Source: an uncultured Bacteroidia bacterium (GTDB lineage Bacteria; Bacteroidota; Bacteroidia; Bacteroidales; F082). From it: a DNA stretch of 41,922 bases. The DNA lies in NCBI GenBank assembly GCA_902794155.1, contig CADBGN010000012.1, positions 1-41,922 on the forward strand, in the 5' to 3' direction. Under the pieces are notes generated by a model. The model did no database searches. It saw only the letters and a program-made list of their open reading frames with translations, and was not told where the DNA came from. Both the position numbers and the translations under genes were made by a program. Of this stretch, positions 3,787 to 40,405 are shown piece after piece (position 1 is the stretch's first letter; each line of letters opens with the position of its first letter).

Positions 3787-3798
3787 GGCAACACTATT

Positions 3799-24838: not shown

Positions 24839-25966
24839 GTGAAGGACAACTTCGACCGCATCGGCAAGATCGAATACCCCGAGATACGGCCCATCCTCGG
24901 CTGCGAAAAGCAGTTCCAATACCGCAACAAGCTGGAATACACTTTCTCGAACCGCAAGTGGCTCACCGATGGCGCACCCACAGGCACCCACAACGAAGAC
25001 GCCTGCAAGGGACTCGGTTTCCACCTGCCCCAGCTCTTCGACCGCGTGGTCGACATTGAGCAATGCCATCTGCAAGCCGACCCATCGAACGACATCCGAT
25101 TGTTCGTCCGTCGATTCACGATGGAACGCCACCTCCCCTATTATAACTTCCGCGCCCACGAGGGCCTGATGCGCAACCTCGTCGTCCGCTGCAACTCGAA
25201 AGGCGAGTTCATGGTCATCCTCGTCATCAGCGAGGAGAACGAAGTGGTGCGCCACGAGCTCATCCCAGCGCTGGAGATGGCCTTCCCGCAGATCGTGTCG
25301 CTACTCTTGGTCATCAACCCGAAGCTGAACGACATCATCAACGACTTGCCGTTCGAGTGCCTCAAGGGTGAGCCTTACCTCATCGAGACCATGAAATCAC
25401 CGCGCCCGGGATACGATGAGCTGAAGTTCCGCATTGGACCGGTGTCGTTCTTCCAAACCAACGTCTACCAAGCCGAGCGACTCTATAAAACCGCCTTTGA
25501 CCTCGCCGACGTTCAGGGCGACGAGCTGATGTACGACCTCTACACGGGCACGGGCACCATCGCCCAGTATTTCTCAAGGTTTGTGGACAAAGTGGTCGGC
25601 ATTGAATATGTGCAGGCCGCCATCGACGACGCCAAGGTCAACGCCGACATCAATGGCATCAAGAACTGCACCTTCTATGCTGACGACATGGCCAAGGTGT
25701 TTACTGACGACTTCATCGCCAGCAACGGCCGTCCCGACTTCATCGTCACCGACCCGCCCCGAGCAGGCATGGCCGAGAAGGTTGTGGAACAACTGCTGAA
25801 GATCCGCGCTAAGAAAATTGTTTATGTCAGCTGCAACCCCGCGACTCAGGCCCGCGACCTGCAATTGCTTGATTCGGCGTATAAAGTCATGGCAGTGCAG
25901 CCCGTAGACATGTTTCCACATACACAGCATGTTGAGAACGTCTGTCTACTGACAATAAGAGACTAA
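24839..25966 (+). CDS. RlmD C-terminal fragment: SAM-dependent methyltransferase domain
   Basis: This 375-residue fragment begins at the GTG right after the TAG. It holds the central beta-barrel part and a class I methyltransferase: YDLYTGTGTIAQYF, VGIEYVQAAIDDAK, the TDPPRAGM motif and the catalytic Cys in VSCNPAT near the end. It lacks the TRAM domain and three cluster cysteines. If produced by re-initiation, activity would depend on association with the N-terminal fragment. The stop shares bases with the aroK stop (CTAA). Confidence 0.75.
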   Translation: MKDNFDRIGKIEYPEIRPILGCEKQFQYRNKLEYTFSNRKWLTDGAPTGTHNEDACKGLGFHLPQLFDRVVDIEQCHLQADPSNDIRLFVRRFTMERHLPYYNFRAHEGLMRNLVVRCNSKGEFMVILVISEENEVVRHELIPALEMAFPQIVSLLLVINPKLNDIINDLPFECLKGEPYLIETMKSPRPGYDELKFRIGPVSFFQTNVYQAERLYKTAFDLADVQGDELMYDLYTGTGTIAQYFSRFVDKVVGIEYVQAAIDDAKVNADINGIKNCTFYADDMAKVFTDDFIASNGRPDFIVTDPPRAGMAEKVVEQLLKIRAKKIVYVSCNPATQARDLQLLDSAYKVMAVQPVDMFPHTQHVENVCLLTIRD

Positions 25967-26481
25967 GAACTCCCTTTGATCACTTCTAACAGAGAATCCA
26001 CATCCAAGTCTTCCGATTTCACGGTGATTCTGGCTTGCTCATAAAACGGCATGCGTGAGGCATAGTGCCGATTCACAAACTCCGTCAGTTCCTCCTCACT
26101 CTTGCCTTCGACCAAGGGACGTTTGTGGCGCGAATGGATGACGCGGTCGACGGCAGCCTGAGGGCTAATGCGCAGAAAGACCGTCAAGCCATGTTGGTTC
26201 ATCCATTCCATGTTGTCGAAATAACAAGCCGTGCCGCCACCTGTGGAAACCACCACATTTTCAAGGCTTTCAGTAGCCTTCAGCACTTCTGATTCCAACT
26301 TACGATAGAGCGGCTCGTCGTATTTATTGAAAAAATCGTTGACCGAAATCTTGTATTTCTCCTCAAACAGGGCATCAGTATCAACCACTTCCCAACCCAA
26401 GCGGTGGGCAAGACGACGTGCGGCAGTGGTCTTGCCCGCACCCATGTAACCGACTAGATAAATCCTATTCAAGCCCTTCAT
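25963..26481 (-). CDS. aroK: Shikimate kinase
   Basis: About 172 residues from the ATG at 26481. The P-loop GYMGAGKTT lies at 11-19, followed by DTDALFEEKY (shikimate-binding Asp), YRKLESEVL with the substrate Arg, VSTGGGTAC, and the lid RHKRPLVEG. It phosphorylates shikimate at the 3-hydroxyl in the cytoplasm. An ATG at 26490 is also in frame, but 26481 overlaps the upstream TGA as ATGA, a typical coupled start. It is unusual to find it directly behind two exported proteins of unknown role. Confidence 0.93.
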   Translation of the reverse strand: MKGLNRIYLVGYMGAGKTTAARRLAHRLGWEVVDTDALFEEKYKISVNDFFNKYDEPLYRKLESEVLKATESLENVVVSTGGGTACYFDNMEWMNQHGLTVFLRISPQAAVDRVIHSRHKRPLVEGKSEEELTEFVNRHYASRMPFYEQARITVKSEDLDVDSLLEVIKGSS

Positions 26482-26924
26482 TTCACCCATTCGGCAGAAC
26501 GATAGGCATCGCCCACCTGATACACCATATAGTTGGCTGGTGCCAAGGCATTGACAACATATTTGATTACTTTTTTTCTCCTTGTAAGGGTTTTACTTCC
26601 AGTCTTCACACTATTATATGTGACCCAAACAACGAAGTCTTTGTCATCATCAAGTCGCCAAGAACCTTCAACGGTCACATAATTGCCCTTTCGGTCAATA
26701 GCATGACACAAATATGTGCCATCGCCATAAAAAGACTCAGTGCCTTCGGGAAAATACGAGTTACTCTCGGAGTCATCCTCTGAATATTGCCAAGAACCAA
26801 CAAGATAGAAATCCCAAACGGATTCTTTGGCCGCAGAATGTTTAGGTTCGGCTTTTCGCTTGCCTCCTGGTATGCAGCCCGTCATTACTAAGGCCAACAA
26901 CATCAATATAACAGTCTTTTTCAT
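26478..26924 (-). CDS. Small lipoprotein of unknown function
   Basis: A 148-residue protein with a lipoprotein signal (MKKTVILMLLALVMTGC, lipid Cys at 17). The body is beta-rich (WDFYLVGSWQYSEDD, GDGTYLCHAIDRKGNYVTVEGSWRLDDDKDFVVWVTY) and has the look of a lipocalin-like single domain; no family is certain. Its start overlaps the upstream stop as ATGA (26921-26924) and its stop overlaps aroK the same way, so the three genes are translationally coupled. Confidence 0.8.
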   Translation of the reverse strand: MKKTVILMLLALVMTGCIPGGKRKAEPKHSAAKESVWDFYLVGSWQYSEDDSESNSYFPEGTESFYGDGTYLCHAIDRKGNYVTVEGSWRLDDDKDFVVWVTYNSVKTGSKTLTRRKKVIKYVVNALAPANYMVYQVGDAYRSAEWVK

Positions 26925-27661
26925 CTTTTATTTCTTTGGCGTTTGTATTCGTTAATGGCATCTTCCGCTTGTTTGATATATTCATCGACGGGAGCGTATT
27001 GATTCACATCGACGCCTTGGGCTTTTGCCGCAGCTATTTGGGCTTTTGCTTCCCTAATAGCCGCCTCAGCCTGCCGAAGTTCTTCATCTGAAGTGATTAT
27101 CAACTGTTGTGAATTCGCGTTGGACCCGTTATTAACCTTTCCTTTTTGTTGTTCTTGTTTTCCGGCTTGATACTGGTTATCATGTTGATCCTTCTTTCCG
27201 GTATTGTGCTTATGCTGATTCTGTTCTTTTTTCTTTTCCTTCTGGTTTGCTTTTTCCTGTTGGTGGACAGAAGTCTTGTCGGTTCCTAGGAAATCACCTG
27301 TATAAACATTTTTCCACACATAGCAGCCGCGTTTGCTATCCCACTCTTTCCTAATTCCCGAAAAAGGCGACACCTCAGGATTGTCGGGATCGTTATTTGA
27401 TCCAGTGAAATGGACATGCTTGTCCATCTCACTCAAAGGCTTCATGTTCTTGTCAAGACAAAGAAAGCTCCCCATGCCATCTTTCCACACTTCGCAGCCA
27501 CGCTTAGAGTCATATTCCTTATGCACGCCAAAAGCCTCCGTGTTGACAAACACAGTCGCATTATCGTCAGCATACTTATAACCCTTGGAAGATTGTGCCA
27601 ATGCCAACGTAGGAATTGACAACATGACTATCAGCAATAGTAATAATTGTTTTCTTTTCAT
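26921..27661 (-). CDS. Exported protein with two SKRG-C-x-VWK repeats and a Lys/Gln-rich linker
   Basis: A 246-residue protein with a signal peptide (MKRKQLLLLLIVMLSIPTLALA). Two repeats of about 65 residues contain KEYDSKRGCEVWKD and KEWDSKRGCYVWKN, each with one Cys, so a disulfide or metal site is possible. A low-complexity linker (about 130-185) rich in Lys, Gln, Asn and His follows, then an Ala-rich helical tail (EAAIREAKAQIAAAKAQG). I do not recognise the family. It is the first of three coupled genes and lies just downstream of the radical SAM gene, separated by a hairpin. Confidence 0.75.
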   Translation of the reverse strand: MKRKQLLLLLIVMLSIPTLALAQSSKGYKYADDNATVFVNTEAFGVHKEYDSKRGCEVWKDGMGSFLCLDKNMKPLSEMDKHVHFTGSNNDPDNPEVSPFSGIRKEWDSKRGCYVWKNVYTGDFLGTDKTSVHQQEKANQKEKKKEQNQHKHNTGKKDQHDNQYQAGKQEQQKGKVNNGSNANSQQLIITSDEELRQAEAAIREAKAQIAAAKAQGVDVNQYAPVDEYIKQAEDAINEYKRQRNKR

Positions 27662-27698: not shown

Positions 27699-27727
27699 TG
27701 TAGAGATGGTGTGACACCGTCTCTACA
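27699..27727. terminator. Hairpin of the GTAGAGAY family at the end of the radical SAM operon
   Basis: TGTAGAGATGGTGT (27699-27712) pairs with ACACCGTCTCTACA (27714-27727), with one G-U pair and a tiny loop. It includes the TAG stop of the radical SAM gene (27723-27725). Its outer bases match the hairpin at 11294-11324. It may end or attenuate the operon transcript. Confidence 0.6.
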
Positions 27728-28799
27728 CGGGATTAATCATGTGGTATTGGCAAATCTGCAATTTCCCGTCGCCATCGCGGAGGTGCATGCCATTGCCCAA
27801 GCAATAGCGCCACATCTTGCAGTCGGCGCATTGGCCTGTCTTCATCCATGAGTGGTCACGATAGACCTGGAACTTGTTTTGCCACACGTCCCAGAAACTG
27901 TCCTTATAGATGTTGCCCTGGTGGTAGTCGCTGCGGATGCTGAGGCAGCCCGAGATGGAGCCGTCAGCCAGCACCGAGGCCACGTTGATGCCTGCACTGC
28001 ACGAGAAATAGTGGTTGCGCACCTCGCCCTCATATTTGCCGAGGAAGCCGTCGCAGCCATAGTCGGCACGGATCTTGCCTTCCAAACGCGTCTGACGGAT
28101 GAACTCCATCATCATCACAAACTGCTCGTTGCTGAGCTTGAAGTCGGGCTCGTTGGCAGCGCGGCCGAAGGGAAACACCGTGAACAGGCGCCAACGGCGG
28201 ATGCCCAAGGAAATGAGGAAGTCGCGGAACTGCGGCAAGTATTTGATCGTGCGTTGGTTGACGCAGGTGATGACGTCCCATGTGAGACTCGGATGTTGTT
28301 TCATGGCCTCAACGGCGCGCAGCACATTCTTGTAACTGTTCGGGTTGCCGCGCATCCAATTGTGGTCTTCCTCGAAGCCATCGAAGCTGACGGCCAGCGA
28401 TTTCAGTCCGGCATCCATAAACTCGTTGAGTTTCTCGGCCGAGAGTAGCATGCCATTGCACACCATGCCCCACACGAAGCCTCGTTTCGAAATCTCGGCA
28501 CCGCATTGAGCCAAGTCGGGACGCACAGTGGGTTCGCCCCCCGTAGTGATGACCATCAACTTGCCCGGGTCTTGATGTTCGCGAATCTCGTCCAACACCT
28601 TGGCAAAATCGGCAAATGGCATGTCGTCTTTCTCGGAGAGCATACGGCAATCGGAGCCGCAGTGACGGCAGTTGAGGTTGCAACGCAACGTACACTCCCA
28701 AAACAACTGGTGGAGCTCATGCTCGTCGGTGCGTTTTTGCAGCACTGCGCGGTTGAGTTCGAGCATCAACTTTTTATATAAGCCTAAGCGTTCGCTCAT
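27723..28799 (-). CDS. Radical SAM/SPASM peptide-modifying enzyme of the rSAM/lipoprotein type
   Basis: A 358-residue enzyme. The radical SAM cluster motif CX3CX2C is C40, C44, C47 inside LFWECTLRCNLNCRHCGSDC, with extra cysteines C36 and C51. VITTGGEPTVRPDL is the GGE segment that contacts SAM. The C-terminal part is a SPASM domain: SCSAGINVASVLADGSISGC and, near 323, GQCADCKMWRYCLGNGMHL, for auxiliary clusters. The segment around C40 agrees with my memory of TIGR04133, the enzyme of a two-gene rSAM/lipoprotein system of Bacteroidota. It is last in an operon, 6 bp after six paralogous lipoprotein genes that are its likely substrates. The modification is unknown. SPASM enzymes often make thioether or carbon-carbon links. 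Confidence 0.88.
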   Translation of the reverse strand: MSERLGLYKKLMLELNRAVLQKRTDEHELHQLFWECTLRCNLNCRHCGSDCRMLSEKDDMPFADFAKVLDEIREHQDPGKLMVITTGGEPTVRPDLAQCGAEISKRGFVWGMVCNGMLLSAEKLNEFMDAGLKSLAVSFDGFEEDHNWMRGNPNSYKNVLRAVEAMKQHPSLTWDVITCVNQRTIKYLPQFRDFLISLGIRRWRLFTVFPFGRAANEPDFKLSNEQFVMMMEFIRQTRLEGKIRADYGCDGFLGKYEGEVRNHYFSCSAGINVASVLADGSISGCLSIRSDYHQGNIYKDSFWDVWQNKFQVYRDHSWMKTGQCADCKMWRYCLGNGMHLRDGDGKLQICQYHMINPV

Positions 28800-28805
28800 T
28801 TTAAT

Positions 28806-29375
28806 CTACTTTTTTAGCCGTATCTCATATGGACTACCATACAAAACTTCGGCATCCGGTAAACGAGAAATATCAAATTCATCCAGCTCTTTTTTCGCCT
28901 CTTTCAGTTGTCTTTTCCAAATGGTAATATCACTTTCCTCTTTTGCTTGTTCTTCATCGTAATCTGGATACATCCCTGGAGGCGGGCCGTAGACACAAGG
29001 GGGAATATAGGATTTAATAAGGAACTCCAAGGAATCGATACGCTTCAGAATTTGACGGCGGCGAACGTTACGGTCGAGGTCGATATCCTCGCCCAAACGA
29101 TAGTTGATGGAGTCAAGCCTATTCTCAAGGGAATACTTTGCATCAAAGTGTTCCATGAAAGCTTCCCAATAATATCTGTAGTAGTCAGGGTCGTCTTCTT
29201 CGGGATTTTCAAACTTGTCGCTTTTTACCTTGGCCAACTGCATTTCAACCTGCTCACGCTCTTTGCGGAGCTGCTTGCGCTCTTTACGAGTCAAGCCATT
29301 CTGGGTTATACAGGCCGACAAGAAAGCCAAGCCCGTCAAGGCGCTGATCCATACTATGCGAACTATTCTTTTCAT
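28806..29375 (-). CDS. YGxP-motif lipoprotein F (189 residues, two motifs)
   Basis: The signal MKRIVRIVWISALTGLAFLSAC puts the lipid Cys at residue 22. A charged coiled-coil region follows (LTRKERKQLRKEREQVEMQLA), then DSINYRLGEDIDLDRNVRRR. The Y-G-x-P motifs are CVYGPPPGM at about 128 and VLYGSPYEIRLKK at the C terminus (about 178). It is a close paralogue of the next upstream protein (240 residues), with which it shares most of residues 1-48 and a segment around CVYGPPPGMYPDYDEEQA. The radical SAM gene starts 6 bp after its TAG stop. Probably anchored in a membrane facing the periplasm. Confidence 0.82.
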   Translation of the reverse strand: MKRIVRIVWISALTGLAFLSACITQNGLTRKERKQLRKEREQVEMQLAKVKSDKFENPEEDDPDYYRYYWEAFMEHFDAKYSLENRLDSINYRLGEDIDLDRNVRRRQILKRIDSLEFLIKSYIPPCVYGPPPGMYPDYDEEQAKEESDITIWKRQLKEAKKELDEFDISRLPDAEVLYGSPYEIRLKK

Positions 29376-29398
29376 ACAATTGGTATTGGCATCTTATC

Positions 29399-30121
29399 TT
29401 ACTTTTTGTTTCTGTTAACCGGCGGCGGTCCGTAAATAACACCTTTAGAATCGCCCCTGCGTGCTTGTCTAATGGAGTCCCTTTTACGTTGCAATTCCTT
29501 TTTCCGCTGAATGGAGTCTAACTTTCGCTGTTCCGCTTCTTGAAGCTGTCCTTCTTTGTCTTGTTGAGGGTCGTCATAGTTAATGACGGGAACGCCATAC
29601 AATGCTTCATAGATATCTTGTCCTTCCGTTTTGGCACGGTCAAGTTCATCAAGCTCAGTTTTCGCCTCTTTCAATTGTCTCTCCCAAATAGAAATATCAC
29701 TTTCCTTATTTGCTTGTTCTTCATCGTAATCTGGATACATCCCTGGAGGGGGACCGTAGACACAAGGCGGATTATAGGTCTCAATAAGGAAAGTCAACGA
29801 ATCAATACGCTTCATGATTTGACGACGACGAATGTTACGGTCGAGGTCGATACTGTCGCCCAAACGGTAATTGATGGAGTCGAGTTTATTCTCTAATGCA
29901 TACTTCTTATCAAAGTACTCCATGTATTTGGAATAGAACGCCTCATGTATTGGGAGTTCTGTAACTTTTTGGCATTCGGCAAGTTGCATTTCGACTTGCT
30001 CTCGCTCTTTACGAAGTTGCTTGCGTTCCTTGCGGGTCAAGCCGTTCTGCGTCAAGCAGGCGGACAGGAAGGCAAGTCCCGTCAAGGCGCTGATCCAAAC
30101 TATACGAATTACTTTTTTCAT
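29399..30121 (-). CDS. YGxP-motif lipoprotein E (240 residues, three motifs)
   Basis: Signal MKKVIRIVWISALTGLAFLSAC, lipid Cys 22. Charged helical body as in its neighbours, with LDSINYRLGDSIDLDRNIRRR at about 80-100. Motifs: CVYGPPPGM near 121, ALYGVPVINY near 174 and VIYGPPPVNRNKK ending the protein. Compared with the 189-residue paralogue it carries an added block of about 60 residues with its own motif and a Lys/Arg/Gln-rich helix. This suggests growth by motif-plus-helix duplication. Spacing to neighbours is 23 bp downstream and 12 bp upstream. Confidence 0.82.
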   Translation of the reverse strand: MKKVIRIVWISALTGLAFLSACLTQNGLTRKERKQLRKEREQVEMQLAECQKVTELPIHEAFYSKYMEYFDKKYALENKLDSINYRLGDSIDLDRNIRRRQIMKRIDSLTFLIETYNPPCVYGPPPGMYPDYDEEQANKESDISIWERQLKEAKTELDELDRAKTEGQDIYEALYGVPVINYDDPQQDKEGQLQEAEQRKLDSIQRKKELQRKRDSIRQARRGDSKGVIYGPPPVNRNKK

Positions 30122-30133
30122 TGGAGCTGTTTT

Positions 30134-30886
30134 TTATTTACGCTTAGGCGTCGGCGGACCATACAGCACATCTGCAGCACGTCCCTCCGTTTTCCTAACA
30201 GGCAGAGCTTTGATGGCCTCTTCTGTTTCTTCCAAAGTCTTGATTTCCTGTTGAAGCGAATCGGCTTCTTGGCGCATACGTTGCGTTTCCCTCCTATATT
30301 CTTGAATCACTTCAGGTGATCCGTATACGCGCGCGCCTTCGCGTTCCTCAATGGTGTTTCTTAGCGACTCAAGCCTGCTTTCCAATTCACGACGACGTTC
30401 TGTAGGGTTTTGTTCCATTTCCGGATGGTCCAACAACTCCAATTCTTTTTTGGTGTTATCAATATCCGCCACCATTGCTCTCCGTCTGCCAGCACGTTCA
30501 GCATAATACGAACCCATATCATCCGGCGGCCCATATATCAATGCATTATCGAAATTGTATAGACTATAGTATAAGGTATCAAGATGACCCTGCAATTCAC
30601 GTCGGTGCACATTCTTAGCCAAATCGACGTCCTCCCCCAAACGGAAATTGATGGAATCAAGCTTGTTCATGAGCTCGTAGCGTTCCGCTCGTTCTTCAAC
30701 AAAGCCCCAACAGCCAGTGTCTTCTTTAAAAGTGAGCTCCTTTGCCAGAGTTTGTTCAATGGCGTCACGCTCTTTCTTCAGCTTTTTCTTTTCTGCCCTG
30801 GATAAGCCACGCGAGCTACAGCAGGCGCCCAAAAAAGCGATACCGGAAAGGGCGCAAATCCATATTGAGCGAACCACTTTTTTCAT
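30134..30886 (-). CDS. YGxP-motif lipoprotein D (250 residues, three motifs)
   Basis: Signal MKKVVRSIWICALSGIAFLGAC, lipid Cys 22. The body alternates charged helices with motifs: ALIYGPPDDM near 117, ARVYGSPEVI near 187 and VLYGPPTPKRK at the extreme C terminus (about 241). LDSINFRLGEDVDLAKNVHRR near 76-96 matches the same place in E and F. The middle motif block (EREGARVYGSPEVIQEY) closely resembles REGACIYGSPEVMKEY in lipoprotein A, indicating shared modules rather than simple whole-gene duplication. Confidence 0.82.
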   Translation of the reverse strand: MKKVVRSIWICALSGIAFLGACCSSRGLSRAEKKKLKKERDAIEQTLAKELTFKEDTGCWGFVEERAERYELMNKLDSINFRLGEDVDLAKNVHRRELQGHLDTLYYSLYNFDNALIYGPPDDMGSYYAERAGRRRAMVADIDNTKKELELLDHPEMEQNPTERRRELESRLESLRNTIEEREGARVYGSPEVIQEYRRETQRMRQEADSLQQEIKTLEETEEAIKALPVRKTEGRAADVLYGPPTPKRK

Positions 30887-30900
30887 ATCAACGAGTTTAG

Positions 30901-31164
30901 TTATTCCAGATCTAGCTTTTTCAGTTCTTTCTCAAGCGAATCCTTCTCAGCCAACAAACGGTTGTTTTGCTCTTCCCTTTCAAGCATCATCTGTGGGGAA
31001 CCATAAATTGCTTCCGCGCTACGTTTTGAAAGGATTTCCTGGATTTGGTCAATCCTGCCACGGAGCTCTTGACGTTTTTTGTCTTTGGGCGACGAACCGC
31101 AGGCGAACAAGAAAGCCAATCCCACAAAGAGACCTATACGAATAGCATTAAGTATCTTCTTCAT
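30901..31164 (-). CDS. YGxP-motif lipoprotein C (87 residues, one motif)
   Basis: The smallest member. Signal MKKILNAIRIGLFVGLAFLFAC, lipid Cys 22. A helix (KDKKRQELRGRIDQIQEIL) leads to the single motif AIYGSPQMMLE near 53, then a second helix (EEQNNRLLAEKDSLEKELKKL) ends the protein. It can be read as the minimal unit of the family: lipid anchor, helix, Y-G-S-P, helix. It lies 14 bp from both neighbours. Confidence 0.78.
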   Translation of the reverse strand: MKKILNAIRIGLFVGLAFLFACGSSPKDKKRQELRGRIDQIQEILSKRSAEAIYGSPQMMLEREEQNNRLLAEKDSLEKELKKLDLE

Positions 31165-31178
31165 ATCGCAATAGTTTT

Positions 31179-31505
31179 TTATTTCATTTCCAAAGCTTTC
31201 AGTTCTTGCTCAAGGGAATCGGCCTCGGCTTGCAAGCGCCTATTCTCCCTCGCATACTCTTCCATCATCTCGGGCGGGCCATAAATCTCGGAATTCCGGC
31301 GTTCCTCGAGGACACCATTGATTTCGTCGATACGTTGGCGCAACATTTCAAGCTTGTTATGTTTGGACTGCGTAACCGAATCCTGAGCCGGATCCATGGG
31401 TGGCGGGCCGTAATAGCAGGGCGGCGGCGAGAAGATGTTACACGCCGCCAAGGCTGCCGTGCCCGACAATAAGCCTATCCAAAGCTTACGGACCCATTTT
31501 CCCAT
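31179..31505 (-). CDS. YGxP-motif lipoprotein B (108 residues, two motifs)
   Basis: Signal MGKWVRKLWIGLLSGTAALAAC, lipid Cys 22, so the anchor position is kept although the sequence differs. One motif, CYYGPPPM, comes only ten residues after the lipid Cys; the second, EIYGPPEMMEEY, is near 74, followed by a coiled coil (RRLQAEADSLEQELKALEMK). The early motif recalls the anchor-proximal motif I remember in substrates of the known rSAM/lipoprotein system. Confidence 0.78.
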   Translation of the reverse strand: MGKWVRKLWIGLLSGTAALAACNIFSPPPCYYGPPPMDPAQDSVTQSKHNKLEMLRQRIDEINGVLEERRNSEIYGPPEMMEEYARENRRLQAEADSLEQELKALEMK

Positions 31506-31523
31506 AGCGCAATAGGTTTTATG

Positions 31524-32015
31524 TTATTTCTTATTCATTCCTTCGAGTTGATCCTCAAGGGTTTTCAGCTCGTCACGCATCTCTTGCGTCTTCTTGCCGT
31601 ATTCTTTCATGACCTCGGGAGAGCCATAGATACAGGCACCTTCGCGACGCTCCAAGGCCATCCTCAGCTCGTCGATGCGTTGCTGAAGGGCATTACGTTC
31701 CTTATTCATAATCGCTTGTTGTTTGCTATCTTCCCAAATCTGTTTGCTTTGTTCCAAATCGACTTTTTTACCTAAACGATAGTTGATGGAGTCAATCTGA
31801 TATTGAAGACGGTTGTATTCCACCATGAATTCCGGACTAGGCACGGAGTCGCGACACGACATCCAATACATGTCGAGAGCCTGCTGGATGGAGTCTCGGT
31901 CTCTCTTTAATTGTTTCTTCTCGGCCTTAGTGAGGCCCTTGGTGGAGCAACATGCTACCAAGAAAGCCAACCCTGTAAGGGCGCCTATCCAAACTATTCG
32001 GACTACTTTTTTCAT
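31524..32015 (-). CDS. YGxP-motif lipoprotein A (163 residues, one motif), first gene of the operon
   Basis: I start it at the ATG at 32015, which gives the signal MKKVVRIVWIGALTGLAFLVAC with the lipid Cys at 22 as in all six members. An in-frame start at 32063 would precede the promoter box and break the pattern. The body has LDMYWMSCRDS, IDSINYRLGKKVDLEQS and the single motif ACIYGSPEVMKEYG near 129, then a helix to the end. A TATCTTTG box lies 24 nt upstream. Confidence 0.82.
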   Translation of the reverse strand: MKKVVRIVWIGALTGLAFLVACCSTKGLTKAEKKQLKRDRDSIQQALDMYWMSCRDSVPSPEFMVEYNRLQYQIDSINYRLGKKVDLEQSKQIWEDSKQQAIMNKERNALQQRIDELRMALERREGACIYGSPEVMKEYGKKTQEMRDELKTLEDQLEGMNKK

Positions 32016-32039: not shown

Positions 32040-32047
32040 CAAAGATA
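32040..32047 (-). promoter_or_regulatory. Bacteroidota -7 promoter box for the lipoprotein-radical SAM operon
   Basis: The minus strand reads TATCTTTG, matching TAnnTTTG. It lies 24 nt before the first lipoprotein ATG (32015). Gaps of 6-23 bp between the seven downstream genes leave little room for other promoters, so this probably drives all of them. Confidence 0.6.
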
Positions 32048-33244: not shown

Positions 33245-36200
33245 ATGAAACGTAAACTTACTTTTTTATTGACAACAGTTTTGCTATTGGCTATGAATGC
33301 TTTAACGGCAACTGCGCAAAACACCTACGAAAAGGTTACTTCCACACCAAACGACTGGACAGGAGAATACCTTTTGGTCTTTGAAGCCGATACCACAACA
33401 GCCTATAGTTGGACAGGAGTTGATGCTGCCAATTGTTACGAAATTATGACAATTAATGGCAACATCATTTCTGCTTCAAATGCGGTTACCATCAGTATTG
33501 CCGAAATGGAAGGCGGTTACTCCATCTTAGTCAATGGTGGAACCAACAATGGCAAATACATCTATGGTCAATCCGGATCCAACATAATCAAATTTGGAAC
33601 TAGTCCTGAATTGAACACGCTCGAATGTGAAAGCGATGGCATTAAAATCACTTCCTACACATCCGTCATGAGATTCAATAGCGCAATCAACAATTTGAGA
33701 TTCAGGTATTTCAAGTCTACTTCTTATACCAACCAACAAGTTGTCCAATTATACAAGAAAAACGATGGCGGACAACAGCAAGAAACCGTTGCAACACCTA
33801 CCTTCAACCCTGCAGGCGGCACTTATTATGAACCACAATCTGTGACCATCAGTTGCGCCACCCAAGGCGCCACCATCTACTACACCACAGACGGTAACGA
33901 GCCGACCGAAAACAGTCAGCAATATAGTATTGGTACATCGCTGAACATTAGTGAGACTACGACCCTCAAAGCTAAAGCTTTCAAGAGTGGATATATAGCC
34001 AGCCCCACAGCAACAGCAACCTATACCTTCCCTTCTGTAGTCAATATTTCCAGTATCACAGCAGCAGGCTCATATACTGTGCAGGGCACCATCGTAGCCA
34101 AGAGTGCCCGAGGCTTTATCGTCGGCGATGGCACCGGATATGTGTACTATTACAACCAAAACTACTCCCAAAGCAGCTATAACATCGGTGACATGGTGAA
34201 GCTGTCAGGCTCCGTCGTGGTCTACGGTGGCGTGTTTGAATTCAACAATAGCACAACCGTCACAGCTGCCACCAGTTCCAACTATGTAGCGGAAGAGCCC
34301 ACCATCATCACTGGTGCGGAAATGGACAGCAGAGTGGCTTCCACCACACCCGCCCAACTTTCAAGCTATGTGCAATACGAGGGAACGCTCTCCATCAGCG
34401 GAACGCACTACAACATCACTGACATTGATGGCGCTACGACGGCCATTGGCAGCATCTCCTACCCGATCAGCACCGATTTCACTTCGCTGGAAGGACAAGA
34501 AGTCGTAGTGAAAGGCTATTACGTCGGCATCTCGACCAGCACTTATTACAACACCATGCTGGGAAGCATCGAAGAGATTGTGGTTACCAATCCACAACTG
34601 ACGGTTGCTCCGACCGAGCTTTCCGGGTTCCAATATACCTATAACGCTGGCCCATCGCAGGCCTTGAATTTCATCGTGACAGGCAACGATTTGACAAACA
34701 GTGTCAGTGTCACGGCTCCACAAAACTTTGAAGTATCCATCAACTCTGATGGTCCATTCAATAATACTGTTACCCTCAGCCCCACAGCTGGTACATTGAA
34801 CGCTGTTCATGTTTATGTTAGAATGAAATCTGGACTTGAAGTGGGCTCCTATTCGGGCAACGTCACCCTTGCCTCAGGCACCTTGAATGCCTCGGTTGCT
34901 TTGAGCGGCACGGTGAGCGAACTGCTTGTGGCCGAAACGCCCGTCTTCTCTCCTGCAGGCGGCAATTACCTCACCGCACAAACCGTAAGCATCAGCAGTC
35001 CCACTACAGGTGCCAGCATCCACTATACTACCGACGGCAGCGATCCCACAGAGAACAGTCCCGTCTACAGTGCCCCCCTCACAGTGAGTGTCACCACAAC
35101 CATCAAGGCCGTTGCCACTGCAACAGGCTATGCTAATAGTGCCATTGCTGAAGCCACATACAACATCAACGAAACCATTACCATCGCTGAAGCCCGTGCA
35201 CTTGAAATCGATGAATATGGTTGCGTGGAAGGCACTGTCACTTTCATTGACAACCGTAACGTTTATGTGCAAGATGCTACCGCCGGCATTGTTCTATTCC
35301 TAAACAACAACACGGTGCCTTCAACTCTTGCCATCGGCGACAACGTGCGCGCATATGGCAAACGTGCTGTTTACAATGGCTTGGTTGAATTAAGTGGCAT
35401 TAATGGCAACGACGCCAACAAATTCATAATCCTCTCAAGCAACAATTCTCTTCCCTTGGCTATTAAGACCATCGCAGAAATCAATGCTGACTATAGTGGC
35501 AGCAATATGCTACAGTCAACCCGAGTGAAGATTGTAGATGCCATCATCGGCGTTATCAACACCAACGGTAATACGGAACTCACACAAGAGGGCAACAGCA
35601 TTAACATCTACCGTATTCCCAACGTTGAAGGTTTGACACAAGGCGACTTGGTAACCGTGACTGGCGTCATCGGTTGTTTTAACGCAGTGCAACTGCGAGT
35701 GGTCAATGCCAGCGATGTGTTGTATGAGCACCATCCTGTTATGACTGCCACTCCCACCTCACTGAGCGGTTTTACCTACGATATCGAAGAAGGTGGCCCT
35801 TCCGCCATTAACCACATCGAATTGGCAGGCGACTACCTCGTCGGCCCGGTGCAAGTTTACCCATCAGAAAGTTTTGAAGTCTCAACACTTGGAGATGAGT
35901 TATTCCAGTCGGAGAACCCTGCCAACATTTACAACCCAGGTAGTTTCTATGGCATTAAGGTATATGTCCGTATGAAAGCTGGCCTTGAAGCAGGCTCTTA
36001 CGAAGAGCAGTTGACGGTCGTCTCGGAAGGCGCCGACACGCTCTATATCAATGTCTCTGGCTCCGTCACGGGCGAGACTCCCACGCCTCCTGATCCACCC
36101 ACACCACCTACCCCAGGCGATGGTAATTATGTACGCATCAGTGACCTGAACAGCCTTTCCGCTGGCAGTTATGTCATCATTGCCGCCCGCTTCGACGACA

Positions 36201-39200
36201 ACGCCTCCGACTACTACGCCATGACCGCGGCCACGACAGGCAAGCCTACAGGCATACTGTTCACTTCGGCTACATCAGGAAACGACGAAGTGCTGCCCGC
36301 CTCCATCGTTGACGAAGAAAGCAACTATTATTGGGTTGTGGGCGTAACCGACAACGGCTACACCTTCACCAACGCCGCCGGCGAGCTGATTGGCTATGGT
36401 GCTAGCGGCACCGATTTCGTATCAGGTGGTGAAAAGACCGAATGGGTCATTACTCTCGAGACCGCTGGCGAAAGCGCCATGGTACCTGGTTACAATGGAT
36501 TCTATATCACCAATGCCACCACTACAAATAGAGGTTTCGCTTTAAACAACAACCACAACTATGGCGCATACGCCACCTCTAATAATAATGGTAGCGGCTA
36601 CAACTTCTATCTCGACTTCTTTGTGAAAACCGAAGGCGGCGAACCGCCCGTTCCTACCGTGGCCACACCCACCTTCACTCCCGAAGCCGGTACCTATTAT
36701 GAAGAACAAAGCGTGAGTATTGCTTGTGCTACCGAGGGCGCGACGATTTACTACACCTTGGACGGTAGCGACCCGAGTGAAAACAGCCTTGTTTACAGCG
36801 CGCCGCTGGACATTAATCAAACTACCACCATCAAAGCCATCGCGATGAAGGAAGGCTACAACAATAGCAGTATCGCCGAGGCCACCTATACCATCCAAAT
36901 CGGTGTCGTCACCATATTCAACCAAGACTGGGAAGGTGAGATGAACGGCTGGACTTTCGTCAATGTGGAAGGCGAAATGACTTGGAACATAGCCAGCTAC
37001 CAAGGTAACCACTACGCATACGCCAACGGCTTCAGCAGTGGATCTGCACATGCTAATGAAGACTGGTGCATCTCCCCTGCCTTCAACCTCGACGCCATCA
37101 ACAATCCGACGTTGAGTTTCCGCACTGCGATGAAGTTTACAGGCAACGACCTTGAAGTGTTTTTCTCCAACGACTACGATGGCGAAGACCCGACTGAGGC
37201 TACTTGGACCGCCTTGAACTGCGACCTATCAACAGGCAACTACGAATGGGTTGAATCTGGTGACATCGACCTGAGCAGTTTCAACGGCACCATGTGTTAC
37301 ATTGGTTTCAAGTACACCTGTGAAGAAAGCGCCGCGGCAGCTTGGGAAGTTGACGACATCATTCTTGTTGGCATGACCTCCGATCCTGTCGTTAACGTCA
37401 CACCTTTGGCCTTGAACGGTTTCAGCTATACCGAAGGCAATGGCCCGTCAGACGAACAAAGCTTTACCGTCGCCGGCTTCAACCTGAGCGGCAACATTAT
37501 TATTTCCGAGGCTTCACACTATGAAATCTCACTCGCCTCTGGCGACGACTTCGCTGCACAAAGTGCCATCACGCTGAACCACAGCAACGGCACCATCGAA
37601 GAGACCACCATCTATGTCCGACTGAAAGCCGGTCTTGCCGTCGGTGAATACAACGACGAAGACATCACCATCACTTGTTCCGATGTCGATGATATCGAAG
37701 TAACCTGCAATGGCAGCGTTACAGCGCAGCCCGTGCCTGGCGACAATTATGTGCGCATCAGCGATGTGGGTGCCTTGGCCGCCGGTAACCGCGTCATCCT
37801 CGCCGCCCGTTACAACGAGACGGCCAACGCTTACCTCGCTATCGCCAATGCCCCAACAAGCGGCAAGCTCACCACCACCGAGTTCACCAGCGAGATGAGC
37901 GGCTCTGAGGAAATCATTCCCGCCAGCATCCTTAGCGATGAAGACAGCCATTATTGGACCGTGGATGTCACGGCGGACGGCTACACCTTCACCAACGCCA
38001 ATGGCGACATGATCGGCTATGGCAACAACGGCACCAACCTCGTATTGAATGGAGAAAAGACCGTTTGGACAATTGACTCAGACGTCTCTTCACCCGAGAG
38101 CTTGGTACCAGATTATTTCGGTTTCAACATCGCAAATGCCACCACAGAAACCCGAGCCATGGCTTTGCGCGTCACCGAAACGGAGAGTGTAGTGAAAGCT
38201 TACTCCACCGGCAACATGACCAATGGCGAGTACAACTTCTTCCTCGACATCTTTATGCAAGGCGAAGGCGGCTCATGCACCGTGGCTGCCCCGACCTTCA
38301 ACCCTGTTGGAGGCACCTATTACGAGACACAGGATGTCACCCTCAGCTGCGCCACTGCTGATGCCACCATCTATTACAGCCTCGACTCCGAAAACGGCCA
38401 TTGGGAAGAATATGAAGAAGCCATTACCATTGACGAAAGCATGACCCTCTGGGCATACGCCGAGAAGGAAGGCTGCAACGACAGTCCTGTCGTCAGTGCT
38501 GAATATGTGATCCAAAACGACCTCGTCATCATCTTCAACCAAGACTGGGAAGAAGATTGGCACGGTTGGACTGAGGTCTGCGTGGAAGGCGACTCACTCT
38601 GGCGCATCGCCTCCTACCAAGGCAACCACTACGCATACGCCAACGGCTACAACCATCCTACCTCAGAGGATTGGCTCATCTCGCCCGCTTTCGATTTGGA
38701 CAGCTACAACGATGTGGTGCTGACCTTCAGAACGGCTAAGAACTACACTGGTGAAGACATCAAAGTGTACTTCTCCAACGACTACGACGGCCAAGACCCG
38801 ACTGCTGCCACATGGGAAGAACTTGATTGCGAGCTTTCGGAAGGCGGCTGGAACTGGGTTGAATCAGGCGAAATCAGCCTTGACGAATTCAGTGGTTCGA
38901 ACTGCTACATCGGTTTCAAGTACACTTGCATCGATGAAGAGGCTGCTGGCTGGGAAGTCGATGACATCATGCTCGTTTCGGGTGGAGGCAACACCAACCC
39001 GACCCTGACGGCCACACCTAATACAATTAATGGCCTCGACTATATTGAAGGCGAAGGCCCTTCTAATTCACAAAGCTACACTTTAACTGGCTCCAACTTG
39101 GTGGGAGAAGGCGACGTGACCTTGACGGCCAGCGAAAACTTCGAAATCTCTTTGAATGATGAAGACTTCTTTACAACGCTGTATGTCCAATATGCCGATG

Positions 39201-40405
39201 GACTACTCGTCGACCAACCTGTGACCATCTTTGTCCGTCTGGCCGAGGGTCTTGATGTCGACACCTACGAAGGAACAATCACCCATGAAGGCGGCGAGGC
39301 CTCAACCGTGGTCAGCGTGACTGGTACTGTCCACAGTGAGGAGGAGCCTGCCATCGAGGCCTTTATGCCTATGTATATCCAAGGCAACAACGGCTCGAAC
39401 AACAACCGTGTTCCAGTAGCCACGTCTGCGTATATATTCAACTTGGAGCCCAACACAACCTATCGTTATACCAACCAATTCGTTGACGCAAACGACGGTC
39501 CTGAGACCGCTGGTGCCGGAAATATCATTTATGCCAATCCTGAAGGCTTCTATCGTAGCACCAGCCCAAGCCTCTCGACTGAAGGTGGTTATGGTGAGTT
39601 TACCACTGATGAAGTGGGCTCCGCTTTCGTTTGGTTCATCAACGAACCTACTGCAAACGCCCGTTTCACTCCGGGCAATCAAGTCTATCTTCGCATCCGC
39701 ATCAACGACGGTCACGACGGCACAACGGTTGACCAGGCCTTCACCACTGAAGACTACGCCACTGTGCTAAACTATGGCACCGAATACGATGAATACAGTG
39801 CATCTGCCTTCTATGCTAAGAGCAATGAACCCGCTATGACCTTCGCCATGCTTCTTGCCGACCAAGAAGACGAGCGTCCCATCTACTCCACTTGCATCGA
39901 AACAGTAGGAGTGGACTACGGAAGCATCAACCAGTACGCTGACTTCTATAAAGAATTGGTTGCCGGAAACGATGGTTGGTTCGGTGGCATCCTGCCCAAC
40001 GACAACAAAGACGGAATCAATGCGATTTGGATCGTGGACAGAGAAAATAATATCGTCAACACATTCGCTGTCGAGGATGGACAATGGCAACCTAATGCCA
40101 ACACCATCAACCCGAACGCTGGTCTCGACGAGCCCATCTTCATCGACCTCACCGACGATGGCGTTGAAGAAGGCATGACTGCCAACGTGAAGGTTTGGAG
40201 CGCCGACCATGAATTTGTAATCGAAAACGGCGACAACACCCATTATACAATGACCGTGTACAACGTCCTCGGTCAGCCCATGATGATGAAGCAGATCAAC
40301 GCAGGCAGCACTGAGCGCATCAGCCACAGCCTCGCCACGGGCGTCTACGTCATCAGTTTGCAAAACAACCAGAACGCAGTTTCTGTAAAAGTAATAGTTA
40401 AGTAA
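33245..40405 (+). CDS. Giant modular secreted protein with chitobiase-like, choice-of-anchor J and T9SS sorting domains
   Basis: A 2386-residue protein with a signal peptide (to about residue 24). Domain order by residue: N-terminal domain 27-175; chitobiase-like repeat 182-262; OB-fold-like 264-449; Ig-like 451-559; chitobiase-like 562-643; OB-like 643-830; Ig-like 832-943; Pro-rich linker 943-961. Then come two copies of a module made of a YVRISD domain, a chitobiase-like repeat, a cleaved-adhesin/choice-of-anchor-J domain and an Ig-like domain (961-1495 and 1500-2030). A C-terminal domain precedes a type A T9SS sorting signal (about 2311-2386: VYNVLGQPMMMKQ, LATGVYVISL). It is likely exported by T9SS and surface-attached as an adhesin or glycan-binding protein. 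No catalytic domain is recognised. Confidence 0.9.
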   Translation: MKRKLTFLLTTVLLLAMNALTATAQNTYEKVTSTPNDWTGEYLLVFEADTTTAYSWTGVDAANCYEIMTINGNIISASNAVTISIAEMEGGYSILVNGGTNNGKYIYGQSGSNIIKFGTSPELNTLECESDGIKITSYTSVMRFNSAINNLRFRYFKSTSYTNQQVVQLYKKNDGGQQQETVATPTFNPAGGTYYEPQSVTISCATQGATIYYTTDGNEPTENSQQYSIGTSLNISETTTLKAKAFKSGYIASPTATATYTFPSVVNISSITAAGSYTVQGTIVAKSARGFIVGDGTGYVYYYNQNYSQSSYNIGDMVKLSGSVVVYGGVFEFNNSTTVTAATSSNYVAEEPTIITGAEMDSRVASTTPAQLSSYVQYEGTLSISGTHYNITDIDGATTAIGSISYPISTDFTSLEGQEVVVKGYYVGISTSTYYNTMLGSIEEIVVTNPQLTVAPTELSGFQYTYNAGPSQALNFIVTGNDLTNSVSVTAPQNFEVSINSDGPFNNTVTLSPTAGTLNAVHVYVRMKSGLEVGSYSGNVTLASGTLNASVALSGTVSELLVAETPVFSPAGGNYLTAQTVSISSPTTGASIHYTTDGSDPTENSPVYSAPLTVSVTTTIKAVATATGYANSAIAEATYNINETITIAEARALEIDEYGCVEGTVTFIDNRNVYVQDATAGIVLFLNNNTVPSTLAIGDNVRAYGKRAVYNGLVELSGINGNDANKFIILSSNNSLPLAIKTIAEINADYSGSNMLQSTRVKIVDAIIGVINTNGNTELTQEGNSINIYRIPNVEGLTQGDLVTVTGVIGCFNAVQLRVVNASDVLYEHHPVMTATPTSLSGFTYDIEEGGPSAINHIELAGDYLVGPVQVYPSESFEVSTLGDELFQSENPANIYNPGSFYGIKVYVRMKAGLEAGSYEEQLTVVSEGADTLYINVSGSVTGETPTPPDPPTPPTPGDGNYVRISDLNSLSAGSYVIIAARFDDNASDYYAMTAATTGKPTGILFTSATSGNDEVLPASIVDEESNYYWVVGVTDNGYTFTNAAGELIGYGASGTDFVSGGEKTEWVITLETAGESAMVPGYNGFYITNATTTNRGFALNNNHNYGAYATSNNNGSGYNFYLDFFVKTEGGEPPVPTVATPTFTPEAGTYYEEQSVSIACATEGATIYYTLDGSDPSENSLVYSAPLDINQTTTIKAIAMKEGYNNSSIAEATYTIQIGVVTIFNQDWEGEMNGWTFVNVEGEMTWNIASYQGNHYAYANGFSSGSAHANEDWCISPAFNLDAINNPTLSFRTAMKFTGNDLEVFFSNDYDGEDPTEATWTALNCDLSTGNYEWVESGDIDLSSFNGTMCYIGFKYTCEESAAAAWEVDDIILVGMTSDPVVNVTPLALNGFSYTEGNGPSDEQSFTVAGFNLSGNIIISEASHYEISLASGDDFAAQSAITLNHSNGTIEETTIYVRLKAGLAVGEYNDEDITITCSDVDDIEVTCNGSVTAQPVPGDNYVRISDVGALAAGNRVILAARYNETANAYLAIANAPTSGKLTTTEFTSEMSGSEEIIPASILSDEDSHYWTVDVTADGYTFTNANGDMIGYGNNGTNLVLNGEKTVWTIDSDVSSPESLVPDYFGFNIANATTETRAMALRVTETESVVKAYSTGNMTNGEYNFFLDIFMQGEGGSCTVAAPTFNPVGGTYYETQDVTLSCATADATIYYSLDSENGHWEEYEEAITIDESMTLWAYAEKEGCNDSPVVSAEYVIQNDLVIIFNQDWEEDWHGWTEVCVEGDSLWRIASYQGNHYAYANGYNHPTSEDWLISPAFDLDSYNDVVLTFRTAKNYTGEDIKVYFSNDYDGQDPTAATWEELDCELSEGGWNWVESGEISLDEFSGSNCYIGFKYTCIDEEAAGWEVDDIMLVSGGGNTNPTLTATPNTINGLDYIEGEGPSNSQSYTLTGSNLVGEGDVTLTASENFEISLNDEDFFTTLYVQYADGLLVDQPVTIFVRLAEGLDVDTYEGTITHEGGEASTVVSVTGTVHSEEEPAIEAFMPMYIQGNNGSNNNRVPVATSAYIFNLEPNTTYRYTNQFVDANDGPETAGAGNIIYANPEGFYRSTSPSLSTEGGYGEFTTDEVGSAFVWFINEPTANARFTPGNQVYLRIRINDGHDGTTVDQAFTTEDYATVLNYGTEYDEYSASAFYAKSNEPAMTFAMLLADQEDERPIYSTCIETVGVDYGSINQYADFYKELVAGNDGWFGGILPNDNKDGINAIWIVDRENNIVNTFAVEDGQWQPNANTINPNAGLDEPIFIDLTDDGVEEGMTANVKVWSADHEFVIENGDNTHYTMTVYNVLGQPMMMKQINAGSTERISHSLATGVYVISLQNNQNAVSVKVIVK
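36127..39333 (+). repeat. 1.6-kb tandem duplication inside the giant gene
   Basis: The segment from the first YVRISD domain to the third Ig-like domain (36127-37728) is repeated at about 37744-39333; corresponding blocks are offset by 1612-1622 nt. Some stretches are nearly identical in DNA, for example around 37001-37030 and 38617-38647 (encoding SYQGNHYAYANG), while others have diverged, which implies recent exchange or strong constraint at those places. Confidence 0.8.

Follow-up and report, generated by a model that had tools for sequence, protein, structure and literature searches.

The lipoprotein operon

The window analysed here is positions 1-41,922 of contig CADBGN010000012.1 (GenBank assembly GCA_902794155.1) of an uncultured Bacteroidia bacterium of the Bacteroidales family F082. 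The reverse strand of the window carries, at 27723-32015, six consecutive open reading frames (ORFs) for lipoproteins (designated LP1 to LP6 in transcription order), followed by one for a radical S-adenosylmethionine (SAM)/SPASM enzyme. This arrangement had been described in a first-pass annotation made from the sequence alone, and its reading frames, the cysteine at residue 22 (Cys22) of each lipoprotein and the short intergenic gaps (18, 14, 14, 12, 23 and 6 bp in transcription order) were confirmed at the positions given there.

Each lipoprotein combines a lipobox at Cys22 with one to three copies of a Y-G-x-P (YGxP) motif. LP1 (31524-32015; 163 amino acids) contains one YGSP (31617-31628), LP2 (31179-31505; 108 amino acids) two YGPP (31401-31412 and 31272-31283) and LP3 (30901-31164; 87 amino acids) one YGSP (30994-31005), the last protein being the best match in the window to a profile built from mostly single-site relatives. 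Three sites each are found in LP4 (30134-30886; 250 amino acids; YGPP at 30524-30535, YGSP at 30314-30325 and YGPP at 30152-30163) and LP5 (29399-30121; 240 amino acids; YGPP at 29747-29758, YGVP at 29588-29599 and YGPP at 29423-29434). LP6 (28806-29375; 189 amino acids) has two (YGPP at 28980-28991 and YGSP at 28830-28841) and shares 68% amino acid identity with LP5 across 161 aligned mature residues. The recount agrees with the annotated series of 1, 2, 1, 3, 3 and 2 motifs, twelve in total.

The enzyme gene (27723-28799) encodes a protein of 358 amino acids which belongs to TIGR04133 (residues 8-354; Bitscore: 555.6; cut-off: 425) and contains Pfam Radical_SAM (Bitscore: 83.2) and SPASM (Bitscore: 33.9) domains, both above cut-off. 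Its cysteines C40, C44 and C47, as well as C267, C285, C324, C327, C333 and C350, are invariant among 38 aligned TIGR04133 members. The link drawn in the first-pass annotation, between TIGR04133 enzymes and TIGR04134 lipoproteins ('radical SAM-associated putative lipoprotein' in NCBIfam), was upheld, with TIGR04134-like partners encoded elsewhere carrying YG[TSVAMC]P directly at the lipid cysteine or a short way behind it. The profile search that it proposed bore out the enzyme assignment but not a TIGR04134 affiliation of the lipoproteins: none of the six, LP1 included, reached an NCBIfam or Pfam cut-off or matched TIGR04134 (cut-off: 39.8 bits) at E <= 10, and their membership of that family was dropped. 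The operon thus shares with the TIGR04133/TIGR04134 pair its enzyme family, the lipoprotein genes directly upstream and the Y-G-x-P of the partner, but its lipoproteins are coiled-coil-like and contain up to three internal sites each, whereas there is usually one near the lipid cysteine in the known pair. The proposed expansion of the substrate side onto an unrelated helical scaffold is supported, the helical and coiled-coil character having been judged by eye.

A box of the Bacteroidota -7 type (TAnnTTTG; TATCTTTG) is located at 32040-32047 on the reverse strand, with 24 bp separating it from the LP1 start codon. The pattern alone is not rare, occurring 25 times in the window against 21.7 expected from shuffled sequences. 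It is found within 120 bp upstream of 61 of 67 related operons, and in 59 of those 61 its first base lies 27-35 bp before the start codon (32 bp in the window). Because it is kept at a like distance in related operons, the single promoter that had been annotated is credible.

In the ORFs of at least 100 amino acids from 80 related loci, excluding those that fit the YGxP-lipoprotein pattern, 108 YGxP occur in 208,167 amino acids, which gives an expectation of 0.54 for the 1,037 amino acids of the six lipoproteins (Poisson P for at least twelve: 7e-13, a naive value since the six are paralogues). The codons at the twelve sites are varied, and the sites are therefore not one recently copied DNA segment. 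The background rate, the codon diversity and the co-occurrence with the enzyme described below together rule out a chance origin of the motif. Across 173 sites in distinct sequences of window-type loci (those with more than 75% enzyme identity), the Tyr is preceded by V, L, I or Y, and x is S, P, T, V, G or A.

Protein pairs with less than 40% identity in the mature part retain an amino acid identity of 0.67 in the signal peptide and 0.75 in the motif, against 0.32 in the remainder, while at the four-fold degenerate codons of shared residues the third base differs by 0.61 in signal peptide, motif and mature part alike. Since synonymous divergence is equal in all three parts although identity is not, the signal peptide is evidently kept by selection on the protein, and its similarity between the proteins is not explained by recent gene conversion. 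The twelve X-Y-G-x-P sites are likewise under protein-level selection. Residues K3, R6, W9, L13, A17 and L19 are invariant or almost so, each being retained in 54-61 of 61 distinct signal peptides. In 83-100% of YGxP lipoprotein pairs, depending on the identity bin, the signal peptide is better conserved than the mature part. In the two bins filled by control lipoproteins from the same loci, this holds for 93% of 873 and 83% of 278 YGxP pairs, but for only 4% of 23 and 7% of 88 control pairs. A single control pair falls into each of two further bins, its signal peptide being the more conserved part at a mature identity of 0.25-0.4 and not at 0.4-0.55; in all, 113 of the 148 control pairs lie inside the bins. 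The trend recurs in weaker form in other YGxP subfamilies (88% of 101, 70% of 1509 and 57% of 21 pairs). As the signal peptide outconserves the mature part, the reverse of the controls, it may serve as the leader of the enzyme, a function that would suit a cytosolic Fe-S enzyme, which must act before export.

Association of YGxP proteins with TIGR04133 enzymes

At E <= 1e-80, TIGR04133 is matched in 82 of the 173 family genomes (5/16 genera) and in 66 of 295 genomes of the order (49/183 genera), 61 of which lie above the family cut-off. The 111 loci analysed comprise the regions around 80 matches, 27 order-wide loci with flanks of up to 1.5 kb, three plasmid loci and the window; one of them (L137) repeats another (L066). 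A YGxP protein is encoded within 1.6 kb of the TIGR04133 gene in 107 of the 111. Among the 41 loci that are not of the window type, 29 pass a strict script for secreted YGxP proteins within 1.6 kb upstream, and the script missed seven more with YGxP lipoproteins; L196 has such a protein downstream, and L104 has YGPP in non-lipoproteins. Less than 400 bp of upstream DNA is available for L105 and L138.

A second sample was taken from the best 80 loci of a genome-contig scan, of which 61 were scanned for the motif (L208 and L257 probably repeat genomes already sampled) and 19, at 22-27% identity, lie outside the count. YGxP was found near the enzyme in 49 of the 61, the pattern having matched in 51, with those in L211 and L240 judged spurious. 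A Y-G with the Pro shifted or missing is retained in L211, L235 and L253, and a YGAP lies about 2.3 kb away in L241.

The proteins that carry the motif are of several kinds. They include short tail-tagged lipoproteins, coiled coils and a CarboxypepD_reg-type lipoprotein in Parabacteroides (Bitscore: 52.5, above cut-off). For this domain, a partner encoded elsewhere in the source genome (contig C19) and that of Treponema saccharophilum, which reads C-YGMP, score 27.5 and 28.4 bits, both under the cut-off, and the L118 partner does not match. Kin of the enzyme in Bacillota and in a metagenome-assembled genome of the Coriobacteriaceae (34-36% identity) are likewise accompanied by YGxP proteins, in six of seven cases VYGPP lipoproteins with up to five sites; two of the Bacillota kin score 265 and 278 bits against TIGR04133, under its cut-off. 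Co-occurrence of motif and enzyme thus spans phyla. Judged from the sequences compared, the motif belongs to the enzyme and recurs on unrelated scaffolds.

A different setting is seen in L104 (G053:C19), where a 53%-identical TIGR04133 enzyme (2495-3553, reverse strand) adjoins a 96-amino-acid non-lipoprotein with two YGPP (2192-2482, reverse strand) that was found in none of the 172 other family genomes searched. A Ser/Thr kinase gene (3562-4860, reverse strand; Pfam Pkinase Bitscore: 128.7) encodes two further YGPP between the kinase domain and the membrane helices, and other kinase-like genes flank this group. On the Treponema saccharophilum plasmid pTS1, the TIGR04133/lipoprotein pair (L198, 2776-3981) lies beside a gene for an Mpi-family serine recombinase, and mobility or phase variation of the pair is possible.

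Window-type loci account for 70 of the 111. The upstream chain consists of one gene in 55 of them, two in eight, three in two, four in one, five in two and six in one, the window, while L103 has none. One site per operon is the commonest state (25 loci) and twelve, in the window, the maximum, which makes the window operon the largest of its type in both genes and sites. A single-site lipoprotein of 89-91 amino acids directly precedes the enzyme gene in 16 loci. Five genes are present in each of the two nearest relatives, L044 (99% enzyme identity) and L064 (95%), and one L044 gene joins an LP5-like front to an LP6-like end, which suggests recombination between duplicated lipoprotein genes. We infer that the arrays grew from a single gene. 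The first-pass annotation knew of no described system with this layout; the operon is indeed extreme in size, but multi-gene or multi-site YGxP sets are also found in other Bacteroidales and in Bacillota.

In the source genome (G000; 205 contigs, 88.6% complete), contig C19 carries another TIGR04133 gene (476 bits), preceded by two small lipoproteins that read QAC-YGVP and QAC-YGAP, the former scoring 23.1 bits against TIGR04134 (cut-off: 39.8). The two loci together encode two enzymes and eight lipoproteins with fourteen YGxP sites.

A profile of the lipoproteins (A1) matched 71 of 99 genomes of the genus. The first-pass annotation had named, as a finding that would speak against it, homologous arrays occurring widely with no enzyme gene nearby; this is not the pattern in the genus, where the lipoproteins are present in 68 of 68 genomes with a window-type enzyme and in three of 31 without one (Fisher P: 1.2e-21, nominal since the genomes are related), and lone copies away from the operon do exist. 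Five genomes with only the other enzyme type lack such a lipoprotein, which fits the coiled-coil lipoproteins going with the window-type enzyme. Lone lipoproteins of 89-106 amino acids occur in the stretches L179-L190, and in the 11 of 12 that were read (none was parsed in L183) each keeps one YGSP or YGPP; L181 and L184 come from genomes with only the other TIGR04133 type. Such lone proteins are possible substrates in trans. Furthermore, a window-type enzyme (86% identity) with a YGxP lipoprotein is found in a genome classified in a different family of the order (L134; G175:C52), either through horizontal transfer or because the genome is misplaced.

Affiliation of the enzyme and comparison with spliceases

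To our knowledge, the only known radical SAM reaction at Tyr-Gly inside a protein is that of the splicease PlpXY of Pleurocapsa. The family of its radical SAM component corresponds to TIGR04103, which we take to be the same as IPR026482. PlpX, placed in IPR026482 (PMC11002830), excises tyramine at Xaa-Tyr-Gly (PMC11002830; PMC10373908), and PlpXY joins the ends as an alpha-keto amide (PMC11002830; PMC10373908; PMC10533398). The tags described in PMC10533398 include ...RPLYGLPI and ...GYGLPI, and two GYGLPI variants were accepted in FtsZ. Both systems have a radical SAM/SPASM enzyme, several sites per precursor are possible in each, and the X-Y-G(-L-P) core matches the twelve X-Y-G-x-P sites of the window. 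An HCGS signature at the radical SAM cysteines is also shared: it is present in 27 of 27 TIGR04133 enzymes, 7/7 Bacillota kin and 10/11 members of the TIGR04103 group, but in none of 15 haem-type and none of five other enzymes ('haem-type' being only our label for distant loci, with a putative function). Residues G48, S49, L188, W203 and E257 of the window enzyme are furthermore common to the TIGR04103 group.

Some TIGR04103-type loci encode a YGxP precursor. On a Nostoc plasmid, a 'nif11-class peptide radical SAM maturase 3' (TIGR04103) neighbours a Nif11 precursor ending in ...ALYGLPPELF, with a hypothetical gene of 71 amino acids just downstream of the enzyme. Two Bacteroidota loci with TIGR04103-like enzymes have putative precursors with six KYGYP (L147/L191) or a C-terminal LYGTP (L145/L192). 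In L191 (G336:C3; from 8414 onward, forward strand), the enzyme gene is followed by one for a 214-amino-acid protein ending in the six KYGYP, likely a multi-core precursor; this genome belongs to the same taxonomic order as the window. In a tblastn comparison against plasmids, the nearest kin outside TIGR04133 were TIGR04103-like, GDL and two unnamed proteins of the same tree group (114-135 bits), against up to 107 bits for TIGR04053, 81 for PqqE and 80-81 for MftC (among 60 of 88 matches listed). The GDL-motif/DUF1843 peptide maturases (TIGR03913) share this tree group and have small substrate-like genes adjacent, and two of five DUF1843 proteins read have P-Y-G near the N-terminus; these are, however, small soluble proteins with no lipobox and no Pro at Y+3.

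Kinship with the spliceases is countered by several results. The window enzyme scores 117.3 bits against TIGR04103 (cut-off: 725) and is not a member; the TIGR04053, AhbD, NirJ2 and NirJ models score much alike (122-104 bits), and in two Bacillota kin several of them exceed TIGR04103. T86, L91, R213 and C249 are common to the haem-type enzymes instead. A tree of 42 rows with few outgroups joined TIGR04133 and the TIGR04103 group at 98/98, but in one of 63 rows, which included 14 distant loci (22-27% identity) as outgroups and from which MftC and T03_L148 were dropped as long branches, support fell to 87/49, and approximately unbiased tests did not reject alternative placements (p 0.21 and 0.45). 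The phylogeny was therefore set aside as proof of splicease kinship, and it leaves open which characterised enzyme is nearest to TIGR04133.

Among the 11 TIGR04103-group loci examined, only three have a YGxP precursor, none being found in the DNA read for L143, L144, L146, L148, Aureibacter, Agathobacter, Tropicibacter and Azospirillum. One PlpXY tag in PMC10533398, ...GYGVVFP, has no Pro at Y+3. PlpXY precursors have Nif11 or nitrile-hydratase leaders, in contrast to the lipoprotein signal peptides here, and no PlpY-like, protease or transporter gene was found beside the window enzyme. A tblastn search with the Nostoc 71-amino-acid protein returned nothing below E 0.3 in the collected loci except itself, although a divergent recognition element for ribosomally synthesized and post-translationally modified peptides (RiPPs) could escape such a search. 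Comparisons of the ORFs of 68 loci (L134 and L137 omitted) likewise gave no PlpY-like partner, the clusters of small ORFs resembling other frames of known genes and those of at least 80 amino acids yielding only aroK as a recurrent gene. No hidden third partner gene is thus clear, and aroK is read as synteny. By analogy with PlpXY, splicing may be the chemistry at the YGxP sites; it is given as a tentative possibility because the tree does not hold up, the signature residues are split and no PlpY-like gene was found.

Proposed modification of the lipoproteins and alternatives

The operon probably encodes one protein-modifying enzyme together with its own six envelope substrates, which would be modified at X-Y-G-x-P before export. 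The cytosolic Fe-S enzyme would bind each unfolded pre-lipoprotein, aided by the conserved signal peptide as leader, and modify the Tyr-Gly of every X-Y-G-x-P ahead of export. Once signal peptidase II had removed the leader, the coiled-coil proteins, lipidated and modified at several sites, would become anchored in the envelope; the surface location that the first-pass annotation offered beside a periplasmic one is only a possibility. Gene duplication, internal repeats and recombination have probably raised the numbers of substrates and sites.

A number of observations weigh against this reading. Decayed array sites (YDTP, YVSP, TGSP, YGTKRP and YGTRRP) are seen, and single sites are therefore dispensable. 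No adjacent YGxP protein was found in the available DNA of L103, which lacks an upstream chain, or of L141, with its 1.5-kb flanks, nor was YGxP found near the enzyme in eight of the 61 loci of the second sample (L212, L213, L215, L216, L224, L229, L240 and L260, the last without upstream DNA). Three genus genomes have the lipoprotein without a window-type enzyme: G069 and G125, with the other enzyme type, and G092, in which no TIGR04133 gene was found. Since no signal peptide is obvious in the kinase-linked substrates of L104 or in the L259 peptide, the leader role cannot hold family-wide.

The fuller proposal is that TIGR04133 enzymes are envelope-protein spliceases and that in this lineage a single enzyme, with the signal peptide as leader, removes tyramine from as many as twelve X-Tyr-Gly-x-Pro sites across the six coiled-coil lipoproteins ahead of their export, studding the envelope with backbone alpha-keto-beta-amino acids; this is speculative and less likely than not. 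If it holds, these residues could form covalent tethers that react with amines or thiols, or could trap proteases at the envelope, and splicing would extend over Bacteroidota, Bacillota, Spirochaetota and Fibrobacterota and include a Ser/Thr kinase.

Another radical reaction at X-Y-G-x-P, such as crosslinking of the Tyr ring into a three- or four-residue cyclophane, the joining of Tyr to Pro or attack at the alpha-carbon of Gly, is unlikely but the best of the alternatives. SPASM enzymes of neighbouring families form crosslinks or decarboxylate, PqqE among SPASM enzymes acts on the Glu-Tyr of a peptide, and the window enzyme scores 76-111 bits against the PapB, MftC, PqqE, NirJ and AhbD models; the phylogeny leaves its nearest characterised relative open. 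MftC and PqqE differ in their lower tblastn similarity (80-81 bits at most, among 60 of 88 matches listed), in their small cofactor products and in having no known YGxP. The mycofactocin enzyme MftC, a SPASM enzyme of a neighbouring family, acts on a peptide Tyr (PMC8326336). The variation of x argues against a side-chain link from Tyr to x, as does Gly, which lacks a beta carbon, and a three-residue cyclophane is unlikely since x can be Gly or Pro. The Gly at Y+1 likewise has no beta carbon, and the pair that stays constant, Y-G, is also that of splicease sites.

YGxP could instead be a docking motif only, the enzyme altering another part of the lipoproteins, for example a residue close by. 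Across scaffolds the motif varies far less than its context, as expected of recognition, yet these scaffolds show no other residue in common, the sequences beside the motif being unlike in the coiled-coil, tail-tagged, CarboxypepD_reg-type, kinase and Bacillota proteins, and the three degenerate sites noted above keep the Y-G with the Pro displaced or absent; we regard this explanation as improbable. A purely structural role, in which YGxP breaks a helix, S/T-P-E starts the next and the enzyme is linked by common descent only, would account for the frequent YGSPE between helical-looking stretches in the arrays (E follows Pro at 109 of 173 sites), a usual helix N-cap. It is very improbable given that the motif also lies beside the lipid cysteine, close to C-termini, in Bacillota proteins of acidic character and in the linker of a kinase, and that its co-occurrence with the enzyme spans phyla. 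That the lipoproteins are chaperones or electron donors of an enzyme acting on something else would fit the tight co-occurrence and the shared promoter, but is scarcely credible, as the lipoproteins have signal peptides and lipoboxes and the enzyme none, an operon may have anything from one to twelve sites, and the neighbouring genes offer no other conserved candidate for a substrate.

Under the reading of the lipoproteins as substrates, TIGR04133, which is common in the order, gains a testable X-Y-G-x-P motif shared across unrelated scaffolds and some splicease-family precursors, and the 87-amino-acid LP3 and its single-site relatives of 89-91 amino acids are small enough for direct assay. 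Splicing at these sites would mean that structural proteins with a modified backbone, produced outside any classical RiPP pathway, are widespread among gut bacteria; otherwise a different radical Tyr-Gly reaction awaits. The enzyme family and its lipoprotein partner are already present in NCBIfam as hypothetical equivalogs, and the literature searched assigns TIGR04133 neither a substrate motif nor a reaction and showed no paper on YGxP lipoproteins. The Y-G-x-P rule across scaffolds, the multi-gene and multi-site arrays, the signal peptide as a likely leader and the link to splicease cores did not appear in it either, though Scott et al. 2022, Richter et al. 2024 and Morinaka et al. 2018 may hold part of this.

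Downstream of the enzyme gene, the window contains two small secreted-protein genes (26478-26924 and 26921-27661) and, beyond them and on the same strand as the operon, a shikimate-kinase-like gene (25963-26490, reverse strand). An aroK gene is located downstream of the enzyme in 33 of the 68 loci compared (ORFs of at least 80 amino acids), the window among them. On the forward strand, at 33245-40405, the window encodes a secreted protein of 2386 amino acids with repeated modules and, as judged by eye, a C-terminal domain resembling type IX secretion sorting domains.

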